NCBI GenBank assembly: GCA_005882995.1
Contig: VBCY01000024.1
Location: forward strand, 20,332 to 58,461
Reading direction: 5' to 3'
Source: Betaproteobacteria bacterium
GTDB taxonomy: Bacteria > Pseudomonadota > Gammaproteobacteria > Burkholderiales > Casimicrobiaceae
Length of the DNA stretch: 38,130 nt
The first letter of the stretch is position 1. Every line of letters begins with the position of its first letter. The notes under the pieces were generated by a model, which was not told the origin of the DNA, did no database searches, and was given only the letters and a program-made list of their open reading frames with translations. This document shows, piece by piece, positions 11,536 to 22,554 of this stretch. Both the position numbers and the translations under genes were made by a program.

Positions 11536-12462
11536 ATGGCTCGCGCGCTCTGGAAAGGCGCGATCAACTTCGGCCTGGTGAACATTCCCGTCGAGCTCTA
11601 TCCAGCCGAGGAGCGCAAGGAATTCAAGTTCTCCATGCTCGACAAGCGCGACTTCTCGCCGGTTGGCTACAAGCGCTACAGCAAGAAAACCGGCAAGGAC
11701 GTCGAATGGAAGGACGTCGTCAAGGGATACGAGTACGAGAAAGACGAATACGTAGTGCTCTCCGACGAAGACTTCAAGCGAGCCAACGTCAAGGCCTCGC
11801 AGACCATCGATATCGCGGCGTTCGTTCCGCTGGAAGAGATCCCGCCGCAATTCTACGAGAGCCCGTACTACCTTGCGCCGACCGAACGCGGTCAGAAGGT
11901 GTATGCGCTTCTCAGGGAGACGCTCAAGTCCACGGGGCTCGCGGCAGTAGCGCAGGTTGTCATCCGGACGACGCAACATCTTGCGGTGGTCGTTCCAGTG
12001 GGTCGAGCGCTGGTGCTCAATACGCTGCGCTATGCCGATGAGCTGCGCGATCCCAAGAACCTCGAGCTACCCGAGAGCGGCCTCAAGGGAGCGCACGTTA
12101 CCGCCAAGGAAGTCGAGCTGGCCAAGCGGCTGATCGACGACATGACGGAGCACTGGAAACCTGAAGAATTCAAGAATACCTATCACCAGGATCTGATGCA
12201 GCGAATCCACGAAAAGATCAAGAGTGGAGAGACGCGCGTGATCACCGAGCCTGAAGCGGAAGAAGAAGCGCCGAAGCGCAGTGCGCAGGTGATCGACCTT
12301 GCCACGCTGCTTAAGCAGAGCCTCGAGCAAGGAGGCTCACGGCGTAAGGCGGGCGATGCACGCCATGCCAGATCCTCTTCGTCGCAGAAGCCGAGCTTGC
12401 GTATGGTTTCAGGTACCAAAAGCTCCGGGCGCTCTCCTGCAGCAAAGCGAAAGCGGGCGTAG
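11536..12462 (+). CDS. ku: Ku, non-homologous end-joining DNA-end-binding protein
   Basis: A 308-residue bacterial Ku. It opens with the family hallmark ARALWKGAINFGLVNIPVEL, followed by RDFSPVGYKRYSKKTGK, the beta-barrel core (IDIAAFVPLEEIPPQFYESP, YYLAPTERGQKVYALLRETL) and the bridge region (MTEHWKPEEFKNTYHQDLMQ). The last 55 residues are a Lys/Arg/Ser-rich tail ending SPAAKRKRA, typical of Ku that recruits LigD and slides on DNA. Ku homodimers bind double-strand ends. AAGGAGG at 11519-11525 gives a strong start signal. LigD follows after 28 nt. Confidence 0.95.
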   Translation: MARALWKGAINFGLVNIPVELYPAEERKEFKFSMLDKRDFSPVGYKRYSKKTGKDVEWKDVVKGYEYEKDEYVVLSDEDFKRANVKASQTIDIAAFVPLEEIPPQFYESPYYLAPTERGQKVYALLRETLKSTGLAAVAQVVIRTTQHLAVVVPVGRALVLNTLRYADELRDPKNLELPESGLKGAHVTAKEVELAKRLIDDMTEHWKPEEFKNTYHQDLMQRIHEKIKSGETRVITEPEAEEEAPKRSAQVIDLATLLKQSLEQGGSRRKAGDARHARSSSSQKPSLRMVSGTKSSGRSPAAKRKRA

Positions 12463-12490: not shown

Positions 12491-14104
12491 ATGGCGCTGG
12501 AGAGATATCGGCACAAACGCGATTTCGGGATCACACCCGAACCGCGAGGTCGCGTTGCCGCGCGCCAGGCGAAGGAGCTCGCCTACGTCATTCAGAAACA
12601 CGCTGCGAGCCACCTCCACTACGACTTCAGACTCGAGCTCGGCGGAGTGCTCCTTAGCTGGGCCGTGCCGAAGGGTCCCAGCCTCGACCCGCAGGACAAA
12701 CGCCTCGCCATGCACGTCGAGGACCATCCTCTCGAGTACGGTGGATTCGAGGGCGTGATTCCACCGAAGCAATACGGCGCCGGCACGGTCATGCTGTGGG
12801 ACCGTGGCACCTGGATCCCGGAAGGCGATCCGGTGGATGGATACAGGCGAGGACGTCTCAAGTTCGAGCTCGACGGCGAGAAACTCAAAGGCGGATGGAT
12901 ACTCGTCCGTACGCACAGCAGCCGCTACAACGACGGAAAGCAGGCTTGGTTGCTCATCAAGGAGAACGATGAGTACGCCCGGCGAGGCGTTGATGCGCGT
13001 ATTGTCGATGAGCAACCAGATAGCGTCGCTTCCGGCCGCAGCCTGGAGAAGATCGCCGAGGACCAGCAGCACGTCTGGCGCTCCGACGCTTCAGTCGAAG
13101 CCAACATGCGCTCAGGCGCGGTTGCTGCGAAGTCGACGAAGGAACGCGCGCAGAAAAGCGGTGCACAGAAATCGCCAGTGGTTTCCGCTCGGCGCAAGCA
13201 AAACGCTGCGTCGGAAACCGAAATCGCCGGGATCACCTTGTCGAATCCCGACAAGCTCATGTTTCCGGAGACGAAGTACTCCAAGCGAGACCTCGCACAG
13301 TATTACGAAGCCGTCGGCGATTGGATCGTGCCACATCTCGCGCGACGGCCATTGATGCTCATGCGCTGCCCCGACGGCTGGAAGGGCGAGTGTTTTTACC
13401 AGAAACACGCGAACAACAGCGTGCACGCCTCCGTGGGTCGCGTTCAGGTCCCGGAACGCAACGGAACCGCGACCTACTTCGCCGCAAACTCGGTGTCTGC
13501 AGTGGTCGGACTGTTGCAGTGGGGCGTGCTCGAGTTCCATCCGTGGGGCTCGCGCGCTCCGCGACTCGATCGACCGGATCGTCTGATTTTCGACTTCGAT
13601 CCGGACACCGGCGTCGACTGGCGAGAGCTGGTCGAAGCGGTGCAAATGCTGCGTGCTCTGCTCGATGACCTGGGGCTGGAAGGTTTTCTCAAGACCACCG
13701 GCGGCAAGGGATTGCACGTCGTCGTACCCATCCGTCCCACGCTCGATTGGGAAGTCGCCAAGGGTTTCACGCGAGCGATCGCCGAATCTCTTGTGTCTAC
13801 GTTCCCGGATCGCTTCACGGCGGTCATGTCGAAGTCGAAGCGCAAAGGAAAAATCTTCGTCGATTATCTCCGTAACGGCGAAGGCGCGACGGCGATCGCT
13901 GCCTATTCACTACGCGCGCGGGCCAAGGCACCGGTATCGACGCCGATCGCCTGGTCAGAGCTCGATTCGGATGTCCGTTTCGATCATTTCAATCTGAGCA
14001 CGGTGCTGGCGCGTCTCAAGGCAATGAAAAAAGACCCCTGGGCCGATTTCTTCAGCACGCGGCAATCGGTGACCAAGGCAATGTTCGCGCGCGTGGGTCT
14101 CTGA
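12491..14104 (+). CDS. ligD: LigD lacking the ligase domain (PE-POL architecture)
   Basis: A 537-residue protein. Residues about 20-180 form the 3'-phosphoesterase domain: KHAASHLHYDFRLEL with His37, His43 and Asp45, and VEDHPLEYGGFEG with His79, corresponding by offset to the catalytic residues of Pseudomonas LigD. Residues about 180-245 are a Lys/Ser/Ala linker. Residues about 245-530 form the primase-like polymerase: NPDKLMFPETKYSK, IFDFDPD (metal Asp pair near 365), TTGGKGLHVVVP, VDYLRNGEGATAIAAYS. The central ATP-dependent ligase domain (about 300 residues, with KxDG) found in standard 800-900-residue LigD is completely absent. Sealing must come from another ligase. It lies 28 nt after Ku and 18 nt before the next gene. 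Confidence 0.9.
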   Translation: MALERYRHKRDFGITPEPRGRVAARQAKELAYVIQKHAASHLHYDFRLELGGVLLSWAVPKGPSLDPQDKRLAMHVEDHPLEYGGFEGVIPPKQYGAGTVMLWDRGTWIPEGDPVDGYRRGRLKFELDGEKLKGGWILVRTHSSRYNDGKQAWLLIKENDEYARRGVDARIVDEQPDSVASGRSLEKIAEDQQHVWRSDASVEANMRSGAVAAKSTKERAQKSGAQKSPVVSARRKQNAASETEIAGITLSNPDKLMFPETKYSKRDLAQYYEAVGDWIVPHLARRPLMLMRCPDGWKGECFYQKHANNSVHASVGRVQVPERNGTATYFAANSVSAVVGLLQWGVLEFHPWGSRAPRLDRPDRLIFDFDPDTGVDWRELVEAVQMLRALLDDLGLEGFLKTTGGKGLHVVVPIRPTLDWEVAKGFTRAIAESLVSTFPDRFTAVMSKSKRKGKIFVDYLRNGEGATAIAAYSLRARAKAPVSTPIAWSELDSDVRFDHFNLSTVLARLKAMKKDPWADFFSTRQSVTKAMFARVGL

Positions 14105-14122: not shown

Positions 14123-14896
14123 ATGCCATCCACCGCGGACGTCGAGCCGGCGACTGCACACACCCGAAGTCGGGCGCTTCATCTGCCGGTCAGGACACTG
14201 CCACAGCCTGATGAAACGACATGCGGGCCGACCTGTCTGCATGCCATTTACGCGTACTGGGGCGACGACGAACCTTTGGCAGGTGTGGTTTCGCGCATGT
14301 GGCGCCTTCAGCACGGTGGCACATTCGCCGTTTTCCTGGGCTGCGACGCGCTGCGCAAGGGTTATCGCGCCCGCATCTACACCTACAACCTCACCGTTTT
14401 CGATCCAACCTGGTTCACGCATCCTCGCGTCGACATCGCTGAGAAGCTCATGCAGCAGCGGAAGATAAAGAACGATGAGCGGCTCCAGTACGCCACGGAG
14501 GGCTATCTGGAGTTCCTGGGCCTCGGCGGCAGGCTGCGCCTCGCAAATCTTTCACAATATCTGATCCGCGGCCTGCTCAGCTGCAGGCTTCCCATCCTTA
14601 CCGGACTCTCGTCGACCTATCTCTATCGTTCGGCGCGGGAATTCGGACCCCAGGACACGCCGGATGACGTTCGCGGTCTTCCCGCCGGTCATTTCGTGGT
14701 CATCGCGGGGTGGGAACAACAACGCCGGCGCGTGCTGGTCGTAGATCCCTATCAACCCAATCCCTACGGTCCTGCGCATGAATACTGGATCGACGTCGAT
14801 CGGGTGCTCGCGGCGACCCTGCTGGGCATCGTCACGCACGACGCCAATCTGCTGGTCGTCTACCCGGCACAAGGACGAGAGACAGGTCAGCGATGA
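14123..14896 (+). CDS. Papain/C39-like cysteine peptidase of the amidoligase cassette (DUF3335-like)
   Basis: A 257-residue protein. The catalytic triad of a papain-like peptidase is visible: Cys34 in DETTCGPTCLHAIYAYWGDD, His190 in LPAGHFVVIAGWEQQ and Asp208 in VLVVDPYQPNPYGP. No signal peptide, so probably cytosolic. Peptidase_C39-like/DUF3335 proteins are found next to RimK-type and GCS2-type ligases and are thought to trim or hydrolyse the amide or peptide products. Gene order here agrees: its stop overlaps the ATP-grasp start (ATGA). It starts 18 nt after LigD, so it probably belongs to the same transcript. The substrate is unknown. Confidence 0.8.
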   Translation: MPSTADVEPATAHTRSRALHLPVRTLPQPDETTCGPTCLHAIYAYWGDDEPLAGVVSRMWRLQHGGTFAVFLGCDALRKGYRARIYTYNLTVFDPTWFTHPRVDIAEKLMQQRKIKNDERLQYATEGYLEFLGLGGRLRLANLSQYLIRGLLSCRLPILTGLSSTYLYRSAREFGPQDTPDDVRGLPAGHFVVIAGWEQQRRRVLVVDPYQPNPYGPAHEYWIDVDRVLAATLLGIVTHDANLLVVYPAQGRETGQR

Positions 14897-16353
14897 ACGT
14901 GTTTCTAGTGGTCAATCGTCAACGCGACTGGCCGGTCGAGGTCGCCGGCGCCAACGTGGTGTCGGCGCGCGAATATCTCACCGATCCTGCGTACAGCGAA
15001 AGCCGTCCGGCACGCGTGATCAACCTGTGCCGCACCGACCGCTATCAAGGCCGTGGCTACTATGTCTCGCTGCTGGCCGAAGCAAGAGGCCACCGCCCGT
15101 TACCGGAAGTCAAGACCATCGGAGACATTCAAGGCGACGATCTCGACAAGCTGCTCGGTGCAAGCTTCAAGGACCAGCTGCAGCATGCGTTGGCGGATCG
15201 TTCAGAAGAGCGTTGCATCGTCGATTCCTACTTCGGCCGCGATCCACAGCACGCCAACGACTCCTTAAGCCAGCAGCTTTTTTCCGCGCTGCACGTCCCC
15301 CTGATGCGGGCGACCTTCGTGCGCGACAAAGGGCAATGGCGGCTCAAAGACCTGCGCTCGCTGAGCCCGCCCGACATCGCCAGGGAGCACCGCATGTTCG
15401 TCGCCGAAGTCGCGACCGACTACATCACGCGCAACCGCACCCGTACACGCGAGGCGCCGCCGGTGAGCCCGATGATCGCGATCCTCTACAACCCCGACGA
15501 ATCCGACCCACCGTCGAACTCAAGGGCGTTGGAGAAATTCCGTAAAGCCGCCGATGCCATCGGACTGCGCGCCGAATTCCTGCGCAAGACCGACATCGAG
15601 AAAGTCCAGCAATTCGACGCGCTGTTCATTCGCGATACCACCGGCGTCAACCATTACACCTATCAATTCGCCCGCCGCGCTGCCAGCGAGGGCCTCATCG
15701 TCGTCGACGATCCGGATTCGATTCTCAAGTGCACCAACAAGGTATACCTCAACGAGCTCCTGACGCGTCACCGAGTTCCGGTGCCCAAGACGCTGATGAT
15801 CCACCGCGACAACGTCGACCAGATCGTGCCGGTGCTCGGTCTGCCCTGCATTCTCAAGCAGCCCGACAGCGGCTTCTCACTCGGAGTGAGCAAGATCGAA
15901 TCGCTCAATGACTTGCGCGGCTGCATCGAGAAACTCTTCGCCAAATCGGATCTCGTGATCGCGCAGGAGTGGCTGCCGACCTCGTTCGACTGGCGCGTAG
16001 GCGTCTACGACCGGCGACCGCTCTACGTCTGCAAGTACTTCATGGCGCCCGGACACTGGCAGGTCATCAAACGTGAAGCAGGACGCAGGTTCGAGGGACT
16101 CACCAAGGCCATGAGCGTCGGCGAAGCGCCGGAAACAGTGGTGAAGACGGCAGTACGTGCGGCCAACCTGATCGGCGATGGGTTTTATGGCGTCGATCTC
16201 AAAGAGGCGAACGATCAATGCTACGTCATGGAGGTCAACGACAATCCCAACGTCGACGCTGGCAACGAAGACGCAGTGCTTCATGACGCGCTGTACCGCG
16301 AGATCATGGGCGTATTCCTTCGCCGCATCCGCGATACCAAGAGGACCGCCTGA
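14893..16353 (+). CDS. RimK-family ATP-grasp ligase with RimK-associated N-terminal domain
   Basis: A 486-residue protein. Residues 1-200 are the RimK-associated N-terminal domain (MNVFLVVNRQRDWPVEVAGA, VINLCRTDRYQGRGYYVSLL). Residues about 200-480 form an ATP-grasp ligase: YNPDESDPPSN, DALFIRDTTGVNHYTYQFAR, CTNKVYLNELLTRHRVPVPK, PCILKQPDSGFSLGVSK (ATP-binding loop), and VMEVNDNPNVDAGNED with the metal-binding E-x-N-x-N. Family members join an amino acid to a carboxylate through an acyl-phosphate. The start overlaps the preceding gene (ATGA), and the stop overlaps the next (TGATG). The product is not predictable from sequence. Confidence 0.88.
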   Translation: MNVFLVVNRQRDWPVEVAGANVVSAREYLTDPAYSESRPARVINLCRTDRYQGRGYYVSLLAEARGHRPLPEVKTIGDIQGDDLDKLLGASFKDQLQHALADRSEERCIVDSYFGRDPQHANDSLSQQLFSALHVPLMRATFVRDKGQWRLKDLRSLSPPDIAREHRMFVAEVATDYITRNRTRTREAPPVSPMIAILYNPDESDPPSNSRALEKFRKAADAIGLRAEFLRKTDIEKVQQFDALFIRDTTGVNHYTYQFARRAASEGLIVVDDPDSILKCTNKVYLNELLTRHRVPVPKTLMIHRDNVDQIVPVLGLPCILKQPDSGFSLGVSKIESLNDLRGCIEKLFAKSDLVIAQEWLPTSFDWRVGVYDRRPLYVCKYFMAPGHWQVIKREAGRRFEGLTKAMSVGEAPETVVKTAVRAANLIGDGFYGVDLKEANDQCYVMEVNDNPNVDAGNEDAVLHDALYREIMGVFLRRIRDTKRTA

Positions 16354-17585
16354 TGACGGCGCGCTGGACCATTCCTGCCTTTTCCGGCTACGGCATCGAG
16401 CTCGAATACATCATCGTCGACGCGGAAACGCTCGATGTGCGCCCTGCCGCGGGTGAGCTGCTGAAGGCGTTCGCGGGCGGCAACGATGCATCCGACGTGG
16501 AACGAGGCGCGCTTGGCTGGTCGAACGAGCTCACCTCACACGTCATCGAAGTCAAGAACATTGCGCCGACAACCGCCATGAAGATGCTTGCCTCGGACTT
16601 CCAGCATGAAGTGCAGGCGGCAAACCGCATGCTGCGACCCATGGGAGCGCGTCTCATGCCCACAGGAATGCATCCATGGATGGATCCCAGATCCGAGACG
16701 GTGTTGTGGAAACGGCAATATGCTGAAATCTACGAAACCTACGACCGCATCTTCGATTGCAGACGCCATGGCTGGTCGAATATCCAAAGCATGCATATCA
16801 ACCTGCCTTTCGCGGATAGCGCACAGTTCGCGCGACTACACGCGGCGATCCGGCTGCTGCTTCCGCTCTTGCCGGCGCTCGCCGCGAGCTCGCCGGTGGT
16901 CGATGGCCGAGACAGCGGTGTCCTGGATTATCGCGTCGAGGCTTACCGAGGCAGTGCCACACTCGCGCCTGCGGTGGCCGGCAAAGTCATCCCCGAGACA
17001 GTGGTCGACCGCCGCGAATACCAGGAGCTGATCCTGGACCCGATGTATCGTGAGATCGAGAGCTACGATCCAAGCGGCGTGCTGCGGCATGAGTGGCTCA
17101 ACTCGCGCGGCGCGATCGCGCGTTTTGATCGAAACGCGATTGAAGTGCGGCTGGTCGACACCCAGGAGCATCCTGCCGCCGATGTCGCGATCGCCGCTGC
17201 GACAGGCGAGGCGGCGCGCTCTCTCTATTCCGAGACATGGTCAACGCTCTGGCAGCAGCAGGCCGTTCCGACCGACACCTTGGTCGATGCGATGCTCGCA
17301 TGCGTGCGTAGCGCGGAACAAGCCGTGATCGACGACGCACAATTCCTCGATGTTCTGGGCATCAGGCCGCGGCGCTCCAGGGCGAGCGAAATCTGGGACC
17401 ATTTACTGGGCGGCGTCGACGACAACAACGCATGGTGGCGGTCGCACATCGCCTTCATCCTCGAGCGCGGAACGCTGGCGCGGCGCATCCTGAGCGCGAT
17501 CAACGGTGAATTCTCCAGGGCCAGGCTTCGGCAGGTTTACAGCCGGCTCTGCTCCTGTCTCGAAGCTGGCGCGACCTTCGAATGA
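16353..17585 (+). CDS. GCS2-type carboxylate-amine ligase (glutamate-cysteine ligase family)
   Basis: A 410-residue protein of the glutamine-synthetase fold GCS2 group (YbdK-like). Visible motifs: FSGYGIELEYIIVDAETLDV (metal-binding Glu residues), NELTSHVIEVKNIAPTT, LMPTGMHPWMDP, SMHINLPFADS, DSGVLDYRVEAYRG and IEVRLVDTQEHPAADVAIAA. Family members make an amide bond between a glutamate-like carboxylate and an amine using ATP. This one is fused into a four-gene coupled cassette rather than a glutathione pathway (no gshB neighbour), so a non-glutathione product is likely. Starts and stops overlap both neighbours. Confidence 0.85.
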   Translation: MTARWTIPAFSGYGIELEYIIVDAETLDVRPAAGELLKAFAGGNDASDVERGALGWSNELTSHVIEVKNIAPTTAMKMLASDFQHEVQAANRMLRPMGARLMPTGMHPWMDPRSETVLWKRQYAEIYETYDRIFDCRRHGWSNIQSMHINLPFADSAQFARLHAAIRLLLPLLPALAASSPVVDGRDSGVLDYRVEAYRGSATLAPAVAGKVIPETVVDRREYQELILDPMYREIESYDPSGVLRHEWLNSRGAIARFDRNAIEVRLVDTQEHPAADVAIAAATGEAARSLYSETWSTLWQQQAVPTDTLVDAMLACVRSAEQAVIDDAQFLDVLGIRPRRSRASEIWDHLLGGVDDNNAWWRSHIAFILERGTLARRILSAINGEFSRARLRQVYSRLCSCLEAGATFE

Positions 17586-18322
17586 GCAACGCGTCCCGGC
17601 GCCGACGAAGGCCGCCGGCGACGATGCCCGTCCGCTTCGTGATCAGTTGCGAGCACGGCGGAAATCGGATCCCGCGCGCCTATGCTTCGCTGTTCCATCG
17701 ATATCGCAGCCTGCTCCAATCGCATCGAGGCTATGATGCCGGTGCGCTCACCATGGCGCGTTCGCTGTCGCGCGCGCTTGGCGCGGTGCTTATCGCCTCG
17801 ACGACCAGCCGCCTGCTCGTGGAATTGAACCGTTCCCCGGGCCACCGCGACCTTTTTTCGCCGGTCATGGTGGGCGCATCGGATCAGGTGCGCCGCGCAA
17901 TCCAGCGCCGCTACTATCTGCCTTATCGGAGAAAGGTCGAAGCCGCCGTACGAGCATCGCTCGCGCTGAGCAATCGCGTCGTGCACATTTCCTCGCACAG
18001 CTTCACGCCGGTTTTGGGCGGCATGATCCGAAACGCCGATATGGCGCTGCTCTATGATCCCCGGCGACCGAGCGAACGTCGGCTGTGCATGTGCTGGCAA
18101 GCCGCGCTGCGCACGATGGACCCGGCGTGGCGCGTGCGCCGCAACTATCCCTATCGAGGCAGCGACGACGGACTCACGCGCCATCTTCGCCGTCTTTTTC
18201 CGGACGGTCTGTACAGCGGCATCGAGCTGGAGATCAATCAACGCATCGTTCGCGCGGGGGACCGCACCTGGCGCGACGCACGGTCGAAGATCATCGACGC
18301 CTTGCGCATCGCTGTGGACTGA
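17582..18322 (+). CDS. N-formylglutamate amidohydrolase-like protein
   Basis: A 246-residue protein with N-formylglutamate amidohydrolase (HutG2-like) motifs: RFVISCEHGGNRIPRAY near residues 18-34, SHRGYDAGALTMAR, LLVELNRSPGHRDLFS, VVHISSHSFTPVL and YSGIELEINQR. These are zinc-type amidohydrolases. In amidoligase cassettes they are predicted to cleave or edit acyl-glutamate-type products, not to work in histidine degradation; no hut genes are near. A basic N-terminal stretch (NASRRRRRPP) precedes the domain; an in-frame ATG at codon 15 could be the true start. ATG 17582 overlaps the previous stop. Last gene of the operon; repeat copy 2 follows. Confidence 0.85.
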   Translation: MSNASRRRRRPPATMPVRFVISCEHGGNRIPRAYASLFHRYRSLLQSHRGYDAGALTMARSLSRALGAVLIASTTSRLLVELNRSPGHRDLFSPVMVGASDQVRRAIQRRYYLPYRRKVEAAVRASLALSNRVVHISSHSFTPVLGGMIRNADMALLYDPRRPSERRLCMCWQAALRTMDPAWRVRRNYPYRGSDDGLTRHLRRLFPDGLYSGIELEINQRIVRAGDRTWRDARSKIIDALRIAVD

Positions 18323-18360
18323 ACACAATGGGCCTGCGAATCGCCATCATCAGCTGGGGA

Positions 18361-18424
18361 TCCGTTGCAATTCGGATGAGCTGGCCCTCACCCCTAACCC
18401 CTCTCCCGGCGGGAGAGGGGTGCG
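18361..18424. repeat. Dispersed two-hairpin repeat, copy 2
   Basis: The same element as at 6682-6747. First hairpin TCCG-N8-CGGA, then GAGCTGG, the conserved CTCACCCCTAACCCCTCTCCC core, and a second hairpin CCCCTCTCCCG/GGGAGAGGGG. It lies exactly between the converging stops at 18322 and 18427, where it may serve as a bidirectional terminator. Confidence 0.75.
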
Positions 18425-18426
18425 CC

Positions 18427-21400
18427 TCAGGTCATTTCGCGCGACACGAGGAATTGCTGCAGAGCAGTGATTTCCATCGGCTTGACGAAGTGCGCGTCGA
18501 AGCCCGCCTCGAGCGAGCGTGCCCGGTCCTCCGGGGCACCGTAACCGCTGACGGCGATCAGCACCATGTTGCCATTGCCGAGTTCACGACGCAGCGCCCG
18601 TGCAACCTCGTATCCGTTCATGCCGGGCAGTCCGATGTCCAGCAGCACGAGATCCGGGCGATATTCCCCCGCAACGTGCACCGCTTCGGGGCCTGTCGTC
18701 GCGACGCGGACGTCGTTGTCCATGAGCTTCAGCAGCGAGGAAAAGCTGGCGACCGCGTCGGCGTTATCATCGACGACGAGAATGCGACGACCCTTGAGTG
18801 GAGGTAGCCTCGTTTTCGGTGTCGCCGAGGTTGCGTTGGCGGTTGCGACGGGAAGCCTCACCACGAACTCGCTGCCCTTGTCCTCGCCCTCGCTCCTCGC
18901 GTGGACCGTCCCACCGTGCAGCTTGACGAGACTCCTCACAAGGGTGAGGCCGAGCCCCAGCCCGCTGCGCCTGCGCTCGATCGAAGTGTCCGCCTGCACG
19001 AAAGGCTCCCAGATGCGGGGGAGATGCTCTGGAGCGATGCCAATGCCGGAATCGCGAACGTGCAGGATCGCGCTGCCATCCTCGCGCGCGACTACGACCT
19101 CGATTTTGCCGCGATCGGTGTATTTGATGGCGTTATGCAATACGTTTTCCACGATCTGCGCGAGTCTGACGGGGTCCGCATCGACCATCAGCGGCTGCTC
19201 CGGCAGGTGAGTAGTCATGTTGTCGTGAGCGGCTTCCGCCATGCCATGCAGCTCCGCAGCCACCTCCTTGACCACTGCGACGATGTCGACCGGCTCCTTG
19301 CGCAGCTCGATATGGCCGTGAGTGATGCGCGAAACGTCGAGCAAGTCGTCGATCAGGCGCGTCATGCGCTTCACATTACGCTCGATGGTCTCGCGCATTC
19401 GGGCTGCTTCCGGCGCATTGCTTTCGAGCCTGCGCAGGATCTCCATGCCGTTGCGCAGCGGCGTGAGCGGGTTGCGCAGTTCGTGTCCGAGCGTGGCCAG
19501 AAAAGTGGTCTTCGCCCGATCCGCCTGCGCCAGTTCATCGAGCATCCGCTTACGCTCGCTCACGTCGCGGTTGATCTCCAGGATCTCAAGCACTTCGCCC
19601 TCGGGCTCACGATGCACCACCTGTCTGCTGTCGACTACGATGCGCGTGCCGTCGCGCTTCACATGCGTGATCTCGCCACTCCAGCGGTCGTGCGTGCGCA
19701 GGGCGGCGTCAATATCTTCGCCGGTGCGGGTCAGTGCGCCCTCGAGCAGCGAGCGGCAGTTCTTGCCGATCGCCTCTTCGGCCTTCCAGCCGTAGGTCAG
19801 CTCCGCGCCGCGATTCCAGAACGTGATGATGCTGTCCTTATCACGTGTGATGATCGCATCCGACGACAGCTCGAGCAGTTTCGCTTTGACCCGCAGCCGT
19901 TCCGCCTGCGCCGTAATCTCCTCGATGTCGACCAGCGTGACAACGGCGCCATCGATTCTGTTGTCCGCCGTCCGGTACGGATGAAGACGCAGCATGTGGT
20001 GTCGGCCTTCTCGGTCGCGCACCTCATGCTCATGTGCCTTCACGGTTTCGATGACCTCGGCAATCAGCGTCTCCAGATCGGGTATGTCGATGGCTGGTTT
20101 CAGATTACCGATCGGCCTCCCGATGTCGGTAGGGAGGATGCTGATTAGCTTTGCGGCGGCCGGCGTCACGCGCCGGATGCGCAGATCCACGCCGACGGCG
20201 ACCATCGGTATGCTGGTGCTGGTGATCAGGTTGTTGACATCGTCGTTGAGACGCGAGAGTTCCGTGTTACGTGTCTGAAGTTGCTCGTTGACGGTTGTCA
20301 GCTCTTCGTTAATGGACTGCAGTTCCTCTTTGGCGGTCTCCAGCTCTTCGTTGGTGCTCTGCAGCTCTTCGTTGGTGGAAAGGACCTCCTCGTTGGCGGA
20401 TTTCAATTCCTCGTTCGATGCATCCTGCTCCTCGATCACCGATTGCACGTACTCTCGTGTCGATGCCAGCTCCTGCTGCAGCGTCTTGACGTCCTCCGCA
20501 TCGTCTTCGCTCGGCGTGGCGCGCCGGCGTTTGAACCACTGCGCCATCTTCGTTCCCGTTGCTGAAGCGGCGCCGGCTCCCGAGGTCTCGCGTGCCGTCG
20601 CATTGGCCGCTTCGACCCGGGTCTGAGGATCCTCGAACAGAACAAGAAAGCATTCCTCCCTCCTGCCGGGCAGGAGTATCGGAAGCACACGCAAATCGAT
20701 CCTGCGCGTCTCGGAGTCACCGCGTACCCGGACGTTGCTGCGCCGTGCCTCTACCTTGCGAGTGTGGGATTCGGCGATGGCGCTGCGCAGTTCGAGGAAA
20801 AGTCCGTCCCGTGCCATCTTCAGGATATCGAGGCTTGCCTCCCCTGGCGAAGGCTTCAGATAGGCACCGGTCTCGCCACGGAATTGCAGCACATGAAATT
20901 CGCTGTCGACCAGTGCGCCCGGCGGCGAATACTGGGTCAACACCATCCGGTCCGCCTCGTGCAGCCAGTCCGTGGGTTCGCCGGGCTTCTCGCGTACTTG
21001 CCTCGCCATGCCTGAGCGGGTGTCTTCGGCGAGGAAATTCGGATAGGGACGTGCCGCGGCAGCTCTCTTGCGGTAGATGCGATGCGTGCGATCGACCAGT
21101 GTAAACAGATCGCTTGACGTCCCGATGGTCTCGGAGGCGCCGAGGAGAAGGAAACCATCGGGATTGAGCGCGTAGTGAAACGTCGGAATCACGCGCCTTT
21201 GCAGCGCGGGCGCGAGATAGATGAGCAGATTGCGACAACTGATGAGATCGAGCCGCGAAAATGGCGGGTCGGCCGCCACATTTTGCTTGGCGAAGACGCA
21301 TATGTCGCGAATCGCCTTGTTGACGCGATACTTCCCATCGTCCTTGGTGAAAAACCGGCGCAGCCGCTCAGGCGTGACTTCAGCCGCGATGCTATCGGGA

Positions 21401-22554
21401 TAGATGCCTTCGCGCGCTTTTTGCAGCGAAGTCGTATCGGAGAGATCGGTGGCGAAGATCTGAATCTCAGGATTGACCGGCTTGTCCTCGAGGAATTCGC
21501 TGAGCGTGATCGCCAGCGAGTATGCTTCCTGGCCCGTCGAGCAGCCGGGGACCCAGATGCGCAGCGGAGCACCGGACGACTTACCCTTGAGGATCTCGGG
21601 GAACACGCTGTGCTTGAGCACCTCGAAGGTCTCGGGCTCGCGGAAAAAGCTGGTCACGCTGATCAGGATGTCGTGATAGAGCGCGTCCAGCTCCGGGCGG
21701 CTCTGTTCGAGGTGTTGCGCGTACTCGGCCATGCTGTCATTCATGTTCAGTACAACGCGCCGCATCATGCGCCGGCGGATCGTCGTATCGCGGTAGGCGC
21801 TGAAGTCCACGCCGAAGGTGGATCGCAACAATCCCAATATCTTGCGAAAGCTTGCCTCATCGACGGTGAGCGATGACCGGTCGCCGTCGCTATCAGGTGT
21901 CGTTACATAGGGATGCTTCCCGATGCGGGCGAGCTCTCTCGCAATCTGCGCCGGCGGCAGAGCGACGTCGACGCAACCGCTGCGCAGCGCGGAGAGTGGC
22001 ATCCCGCTGTACTTCGCGGACTCTTCATCCTGGGCGAGGGTGATGCCCCCGACCGCCTTGATATCCTCCAGGCCCAGCGTGCCGTCGGATCCGGTGCCGG
22101 ACAAGACCACGCCGATCGCGGCGGTTTGCCGGTCTTCGGCGAGCGACTTGAAGAACGAATCGACCGGCAGATGGTGGATCTTGACCTCGCCGCGTGGCTC
22201 CAACTTAAGCACGCCACCGGCGATGGTCATGGTCGTGTTCGGCGGGATGATATAGACGTTGTTGGGCTCGACCTTCATGCCGTGCGAGGCTTCGCGCACC
22301 GGCATCGGCGTTGCCTTGGCGAGAATGATGTCGAGCTTGCTCTCGTGCCTGGGGTCGAGATGCTGCACGACGACGAAGGCCATGCCGGTGTCGCCCGGCA
22401 GGGCCTCGAGAAGCTGTTTCAGGGCTTCGAGCCCTCCCGCGGACGCGCCGATGCCGGCGACGGCAAAGGCACTGGTTCGTTCCGCTCGAGGCGTTTGCCC
22501 GGGTGCGCTCGCCGCGCTGCCCCTCTTCTCAGGCGCGGACGGCTGTTCGGCCAT
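18427..22554 (-). CDS. CheB-CheR-PAS-histidine kinase-receiver hybrid
   Basis: A 1375-residue fusion. In order: a CheB methylesterase (about 30-215: GIGASAGGLEALKQLLEALP, VVQHLDPRHESKL, VLSGTGSDGTLGLEDIKAVG); a CheR methyltransferase (about 230-490: VPGCSTGQEAYSLAI, DLISCRNLLIYL); a PAS-like part; a long coiled coil with EELKSANEEVLSTNEELQST heptads (about 690-760); two PAS domains (about 780-1000); HisKA with the phospho-accepting His in FLATLGHELRNPLTPLRNG; HATPase (DSGIGIAPEHLPRIWEPFVQ and SGLGLGLTLVR); and a C-terminal receiver with phospho-Asp in PDLVLLDIGLPGMNGYE. No chemoreceptor gene or N-terminal receiver is present, so this is probably a cytosolic sensor rather than a chemotaxis protein. 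Its target is unknown. It converges on the Ku operon. Confidence 0.92.
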   Translation of the reverse strand: MAEQPSAPEKRGSAASAPGQTPRAERTSAFAVAGIGASAGGLEALKQLLEALPGDTGMAFVVVQHLDPRHESKLDIILAKATPMPVREASHGMKVEPNNVYIIPPNTTMTIAGGVLKLEPRGEVKIHHLPVDSFFKSLAEDRQTAAIGVVLSGTGSDGTLGLEDIKAVGGITLAQDEESAKYSGMPLSALRSGCVDVALPPAQIARELARIGKHPYVTTPDSDGDRSSLTVDEASFRKILGLLRSTFGVDFSAYRDTTIRRRMMRRVVLNMNDSMAEYAQHLEQSRPELDALYHDILISVTSFFREPETFEVLKHSVFPEILKGKSSGAPLRIWVPGCSTGQEAYSLAITLSEFLEDKPVNPEIQIFATDLSDTTSLQKAREGIYPDSIAAEVTPERLRRFFTKDDGKYRVNKAIRDICVFAKQNVAADPPFSRLDLISCRNLLIYLAPALQRRVIPTFHYALNPDGFLLLGASETIGTSSDLFTLVDRTHRIYRKRAAAARPYPNFLAEDTRSGMARQVREKPGEPTDWLHEADRMVLTQYSPPGALVDSEFHVLQFRGETGAYLKPSPGEASLDILKMARDGLFLELRSAIAESHTRKVEARRSNVRVRGDSETRRIDLRVLPILLPGRREECFLVLFEDPQTRVEAANATARETSGAGAASATGTKMAQWFKRRRATPSEDDAEDVKTLQQELASTREYVQSVIEEQDASNEELKSANEEVLSTNEELQSTNEELETAKEELQSINEELTTVNEQLQTRNTELSRLNDDVNNLITSTSIPMVAVGVDLRIRRVTPAAAKLISILPTDIGRPIGNLKPAIDIPDLETLIAEVIETVKAHEHEVRDREGRHHMLRLHPYRTADNRIDGAVVTLVDIEEITAQAERLRVKAKLLELSSDAIITRDKDSIITFWNRGAELTYGWKAEEAIGKNCRSLLEGALTRTGEDIDAALRTHDRWSGEITHVKRDGTRIVVDSRQVVHREPEGEVLEILEINRDVSERKRMLDELAQADRAKTTFLATLGHELRNPLTPLRNGMEILRRLESNAPEAARMRETIERNVKRMTRLIDDLLDVSRITHGHIELRKEPVDIVAVVKEVAAELHGMAEAAHDNMTTHLPEQPLMVDADPVRLAQIVENVLHNAIKYTDRGKIEVVVAREDGSAILHVRDSGIGIAPEHLPRIWEPFVQADTSIERRRSGLGLGLTLVRSLVKLHGGTVHARSEGEDKGSEFVVRLPVATANATSATPKTRLPPLKGRRILVVDDNADAVASFSSLLKLMDNDVRVATTGPEAVHVAGEYRPDLVLLDIGLPGMNGYEVARALRRELGNGNMVLIAVSGYGAPEDRARSLEAGFDAHFVKPMEITALQQFLVSREMT

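Follow-up and report, generated by a model that had tools for sequence, protein, structure and literature searches.

A four-gene cassette of two ATP-dependent ligases, a papain-like enzyme and an FGase-superfamily hydrolase, conserved across bacterial phyla and proposed to act on a small gamma-glutamyl-type compound

The window, that is, the whole 38,130-nucleotide stretch of DNA analysed here, carries on its plus strand at positions 14123-18322 four intact co-directional open reading frames, which overlap by 4, 1 and 4 bases with the stop/start junction sequences ATGA, TGATG and ATGA in gene order (Table 1). Such overlapping codons indicate that the four genes are co-expressed and probably coupled, and bear out the translational chaining put forward in the initial annotation. 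The Pfam matches of all four proteins exceeded the curated cut-offs; those to PF14401/PF08443 and PF04107 confirm that two different ATP-dependent C-N ligases are present, and that to PF05013 confirms an amidohydrolase, both having been proposed at the outset. Against the NCBIfam functional models, the two ligases and the FGase-superfamily protein scored far under the cut-offs and the peptidase matched no model, hence the families of the cassette are clear, yet no function is transferable to it.

Table 1. Genes of the cassette and the two genes preceding it (positions in the window).
Gene or product	Position	Strand	Remarks
ku	11536-12462	+	upstream of cassette; 28-base gap to ligD
ligD	12491-14104	+	18-base gap to peptidase gene of cassette
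C39/papain-like cysteine peptidase or acyltransferase, 257 aa	14123-14896	+	PF13529; Q28/C34/H190/D208
RLAN + RimK-like ATP-grasp amino-acid ligase, 486 aa	14893-16353	+	PF14401, PF08443
GCS2-family (YbdK/GCL-fold) carboxylate-amine ligase, 410 aa	16353-17585	+	PF04107
FGase-superfamily amidohydrolase, 246 aa	17582-18322	+	PF05013

The ku and ligD genes possibly share a transcript with the cassette and lie outside the conserved module; elsewhere in the genus, genome L039 shows the same adjacency, and in genome L038 it was not found. By Pfam, LigD has phosphoesterase and polymerase domains and no ligase domain. In L039, about 950 extra coding bases, split over two frames and reading like a ligase domain, lie between the two LigD regions, and a separate ATP-dependent ligase domain is located on the contig of the window, outside the window itself (C169:3380-3886). 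On the other side, a 1375-aa CheB/CheR/PAS/histidine kinase/receiver hybrid is encoded on the minus strand (18427-22554) and runs toward the cassette. The 13 codons that follow the FGase gene (18328-18366) correspond to the first codons of an intact 201-aa gene found at the same position in L038, after which the window enters a G+C-rich palindromic stretch; this segment looks like the remnant of a lost fifth gene. The intact fifth gene (L038:12762-13364) gave no Pfam, NCBIfam or PDB family match and showed no linkage to the cassette in other loci. Its product may resemble gamma-glutamylcyclotransferase.

In the ATP-grasp protein, the PF08443 match marks a RimK-type ATP-grasp domain, whose ATP/Mg residues are conserved: K283, K322, R368, D435, E447 and N449 are invariant in 81 of 81 sequences. 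By sequence, the closest solved relatives of the protein were RimK-type ligases, a D-alanine ligase and LysX, and its score against the RimK model TIGR00768 was 61.9 bits, under the cut-off of 143.4. In the phylogenetic tree, the cassette ATP-grasps, which were picked via their GCS2 gene, split from 15 solo RLAN ligases with an SH-aLRT value of 99. A solo RLAN ATP-grasp gene was also observed on a Pseudomonas aeruginosa plasmid (L058), near pagP and amino-acid transport genes.

The second ligase is encoded by the only GCS2 gene of the genome. Its GxExE motif reads GIELE (residues 14-18), and the acidic pair of this motif and the arginines are invariant or nearly so among cassette relatives. 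The solved structure nearest to its AF2 model (pLDDT 96) was YbdK (1r8g), with a VIA-align Z of 39.7 over 348 aligned residues at about 16% identity; Z was 35.7 for the plant glutamate-cysteine ligase, about 20-21 for PafA/Dop and about 14 for glutamine synthetases. The protein therefore has the motif and, as modelled, the fold of the YbdK family, and it scored 74.6 bits against the YbdK model TIGR02050, below the cut-off of 176.4. No match to it was found in the viral contigs searched.

These comparisons bear on the main rival to the pathway proposed below, a RimK/RimB-type tagging cycle, in which the ligases would attach amino acids (e.g. glutamates) to a protein, at its C-terminus or on a side chain, for the papain-like enzyme and the FGase to take off again. 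RimK and PafA are tag-adding ligases, and RimB and Dop are removing enzymes. The match of the ATP-grasp protein to RimK-like domains and the fold that the GCS2 protein has in common with PafA/Dop would fit such a cycle, and a writer/eraser pair is known, RimK adding glutamates to RpsF and RimB removing them (PMC12239564). The GCS2 model is, however, far closer to YbdK and the glutamate-cysteine ligase than to PafA/Dop, and the flanks of 70-72 loci show no recurrent small ORF of the Pup or carrier type, although the target could be encoded elsewhere. We consider a tagging cycle unlikely.

The peptidase contains Cys34, His190 and Asp208, together with Gln28 at papain-like spacing, so that Gln, Cys, His and Asp follow one another in papain order. 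All 79 cassette peptidases compared share these four residues (as do 74 of 74 in a second tally), and the intact triad noted in the initial annotation is confirmed. The AF2 model of the protein (pLDDT 91) was aligned with the glutathione-acylated form of the phytochelatin synthase Alr0975 at a VIA-align Z of 16.9 (rmsd 2.7, 163 aligned residues, 14% identity) and with C39 peptidases at Z of 16.0-16.6, which amounts to a tie: the predicted model fits the phytochelatin synthase fold over the catalytic domain, and C39 equally well. C39 peptidases are enzymes acting on ribosomal peptides, and the tie would suit a RiPP-like system in which the C39-like enzyme serves as leader peptidase and the ligases modify the peptide. 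Such a system seems highly improbable, given that neither a small ORF nor an ABC transporter recurs among the neighbours and that the gene order is near-identical across phyla, unlike in diversified RiPP clusters.

The FGase protein gave a profile match to the uncharacterised structure 2odf (Atu2144) with an E value of 9e-34, and 15.2 bits against the HutG equivalog TIGR02017, the cut-off being 278.75. A far stronger FGase match (240 bits) is found elsewhere in the genome, as are gshA (PF04262, 477 bits) and gshB (PF02955, 242 bits), located on other contigs (C1 and C154). The cassette ligases match neither PF04262 nor PF02955. With all three genes present elsewhere, the cassette is unlikely to be the glutathione or the histidine-degradation pathway. 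A search of the genome for a PF08886-type GshA gave no match but carries no weight, as the search control likewise failed to match. An alternative glutathione pathway, yielding the known gamma-glutamylcysteine or a glutathione-type thiol, would explain why the two-ligase logic and folds of GshA and GshB are seen together with a peptidase fold near that of phytochelatin synthase. Nevertheless, we regard it as distinctly improbable, since gshA and gshB are already there at full strength and the ATP-grasp protein is unlike GshB, reaching 27 bits with the closest glutathione synthetase model (cut-off 408).

With one genome scanned per species, at least 532 GCS2 relatives were obtained, and in 58 of the best 80 on genome contigs the order and orientation peptidase, ATP-grasp, GCS2, FGase were kept; an in-order tally of 61 is reached with three loci from other sources (L037, L038 and L041). 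With an ATP-grasp ligase, a glutamine-synthetase-fold ligase and a peptidase encoded side by side in the same direction, the cassette has the arrangement expected of an Iyer-type amidoligase neighbourhood. Hosts listed among the best relatives include Pseudomonadota (Oxalobacteraceae, Nitrosomonadaceae, Thiobacillaceae, Rhodocyclaceae), Bacteroidota, Planctomycetota, Thermodesulfobacteriota, Verrucomicrobiota and Hydrogenedentota, many of the genomes being metagenome assemblies with taxon labels that may err. With the order kept across phyla and the catalytic residues essentially invariant, the cassette is neither a product of chance nor a local accident. At the same time it is patchy, occurring in 8 of 64 genomes of the window's own family. 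Cassette-type GCS2 was detected in 17 of the 369 sampled genomes of the class, all 17 of which also have an RLAN match; the RLAN domain as such occurs in 81 of the 369, mostly without the other cassette genes.

Several individual loci deserve mention. The cassettes of two metagenome-assembled genomes labelled Rhizobium and Klebsiella (L065 and L137) group with those of Thiobacillus and uncultured Gammaproteobacteria, so these labels may be wrong. Legionella adelaidensis carries a three-gene part of the cassette; on its 'plasmid 27' (L059), fur and dapF lie beside the cassette genes, and the sequence may thus be a piece of the chromosome deposited under a plasmid name. At one locus (L077), an 814-aa insert separates GCS2 from FGase and matches SelO only, weakly. 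Fusions of ATP-grasp and GCS2, suggested by open frames of 893 and 922 aa, were rejected because the two matches sit in different frames.

Among the 66 loci that have 2 kb of downstream sequence, FGase adjoins the cassette in 55 and is absent beside 11. It is the least constant member, and the tight core consists of the peptidase, the ATP-grasp ligase and the GCS2 ligase. At one locus of Nitrosospira multiformis (L078:7276-9227), which has no ATP-grasp gene, the peptidase gene runs directly into the GCS2 gene with an overlap. A start codon allowing the 4-base overlap was available in 36 of 72, 51 of 74 and 18 of 60 cases at the three junctions in turn. The fixed stoichiometry of the products, which the initial annotation had read from the coupling, is an overstatement: overlapping codons speak for co-expression and probable coupling only, the overlaps vary among relatives, and FGase may be missing. 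The pairwise distances of the four proteins correlate over 56 loci (r 0.69-0.84, shuffled maximum 0.23), a correlated divergence that partly reflects common host ancestry.

Clustering of 888 neighbour ORFs revealed no recurring fifth gene, only lineage-bound or scattered families, although ORF picking in G+C-rich flanks can take an antisense frame (as happened in L038), which limits this negative result. Pfam tallies of 221 flanking genes likewise gave no recurring family, GATase_4 being found in 3 of 96 upstream genes. A small carrier, precursor or Pup-like ORF was sought in the flanks of 70-72 loci, and no small ORF was shared by more than 5 of 72. No transporter, regulator, catabolic, consuming or biosynthetic partner gene recurs around the cassette in the related loci surveyed, so the earlier remark that no substrate-defining gene is near applies both to the window and to 80 related loci. 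The PADLOC anti-phage defence models had no match among the four cassette proteins. This neighbourhood also bears on a catabolic or salvage module, in which N-acyl or gamma-glutamyl compounds taken up by the cell would be broken down by the hydrolases, and the resulting fragments trapped or activated by the ligases. Two of the four genes encode hydrolase folds and the distribution is as patchy as in accessory catabolism, but two tightly coupled ATP-dependent ligases point to synthesis and no transporter or catabolic gene recurs alongside; we find such a module improbable.

The cassette would fall among the amidoligase neighbourhoods predicted computationally. The 2009 work of Iyer et al. (Mol Biosyst 5:1636) is said to describe ATP-grasp and glutamine-synthetase-fold ligases beside unrelated peptidases, and to predict novel peptides or tags from them; we know of no product assigned to these neighbourhoods. 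Our literature search, whose reach did not include Iyer et al. 2009, returned nothing specific on this neighbourhood and no product contradicting the initial claim that the product is unknown.

Multi-step synthesis and editing by the cassette enzymes is plausible. Alongside the observed gene order, coupling geometry, active-site residues, co-conservation across phyla and independence from the gsh genes, and the folds predicted for two of the four proteins (the peptidase and GCS2), we infer the substrates, the direction and order of the steps, the product and the biological role as follows. With a probability of about one half, the cassette would constitute a complete pathway of its own, building and turning over a small peptide or amide of the gamma-glutamyl type. 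Its GCS2 ligase would activate a side-chain carboxylate by phosphorylation, the gamma-carboxylate of glutamate or a glutamyl compound being the likeliest candidate, and couple it with an amine; the RLAN/RimK-like ATP-grasp ligase would then use a carboxylate to attach a second amino acid, the two mirroring the two-ligase logic of GshA and GshB. The papain-like enzyme may attack an amide of the product via a Cys34 acyl-enzyme, followed by hydrolysis or by acyl transfer comparable to that of phytochelatin synthase with glutathione. A terminal acyl or amide group on glutamate would be split off by the FGase-type hydrolase, returning the building blocks. The gamma-glutamyl chemistry is suggested by fold analogy, as no NCBIfam functional cut-off was reached. 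Several points argue against a gamma-glutamyl pathway: the modelled peptidase is equally near to the C39 peptidases of ribosomal peptides, FGase is not constant, the Nitrosospira locus has no ATP-grasp gene, and the surroundings show no recurrent transporter, regulator or consuming enzyme.

Going one step further, and only tentatively, the product might be a gamma-glutamyl cofactor or protective peptide not described before, common to many phyla and remodelled by the phytochelatin-synthase-like enzyme, a parallel to glutathione that was overlooked for want of a neighbouring substrate gene; we rate this as rather doubtful. A compact, near-invariant set of genes in at least six phyla, found here in a genome that retains its ordinary glutathione genes, suggests that metabolic maps still lack some conserved small molecule or modification, and its size of three to four genes makes the function of the cassette directly testable.

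Compared with known systems, the cassette hydrolase shares the FGase superfamily with HutG/N-formylglutamate deformylase and differs from it by its very low score against the HutG model. Unlike in pupylation, no small protein tag recurs beside the ligase, though a tag encoded elsewhere is possible. YbdK (1r8g) is the nearest structure to the GCS2 ligase, from which the latter is set apart by the low identity and a score under the TIGR02050 cut-off. The coupling of a RimK-like ATP-grasp ligase with a peptidase is also found in RimK/RimB and RloA/RloC, whose peptidase is, unlike that of the cassette, of the aspartic retropepsin-like type and whose described operons are without GCS2 and FGase genes (PMC12239564). 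Although the cassette sequences are far removed from GshA and GshB, and canonical gshA and gshB sit elsewhere in the genome, the cassette resembles glutathione synthesis joined to phytochelatin synthase: in both, a GCL-fold ligase and an ATP-grasp ligase would be combined with a papain-fold enzyme acylated by their product, the folds being predicted ones in the case of the cassette.
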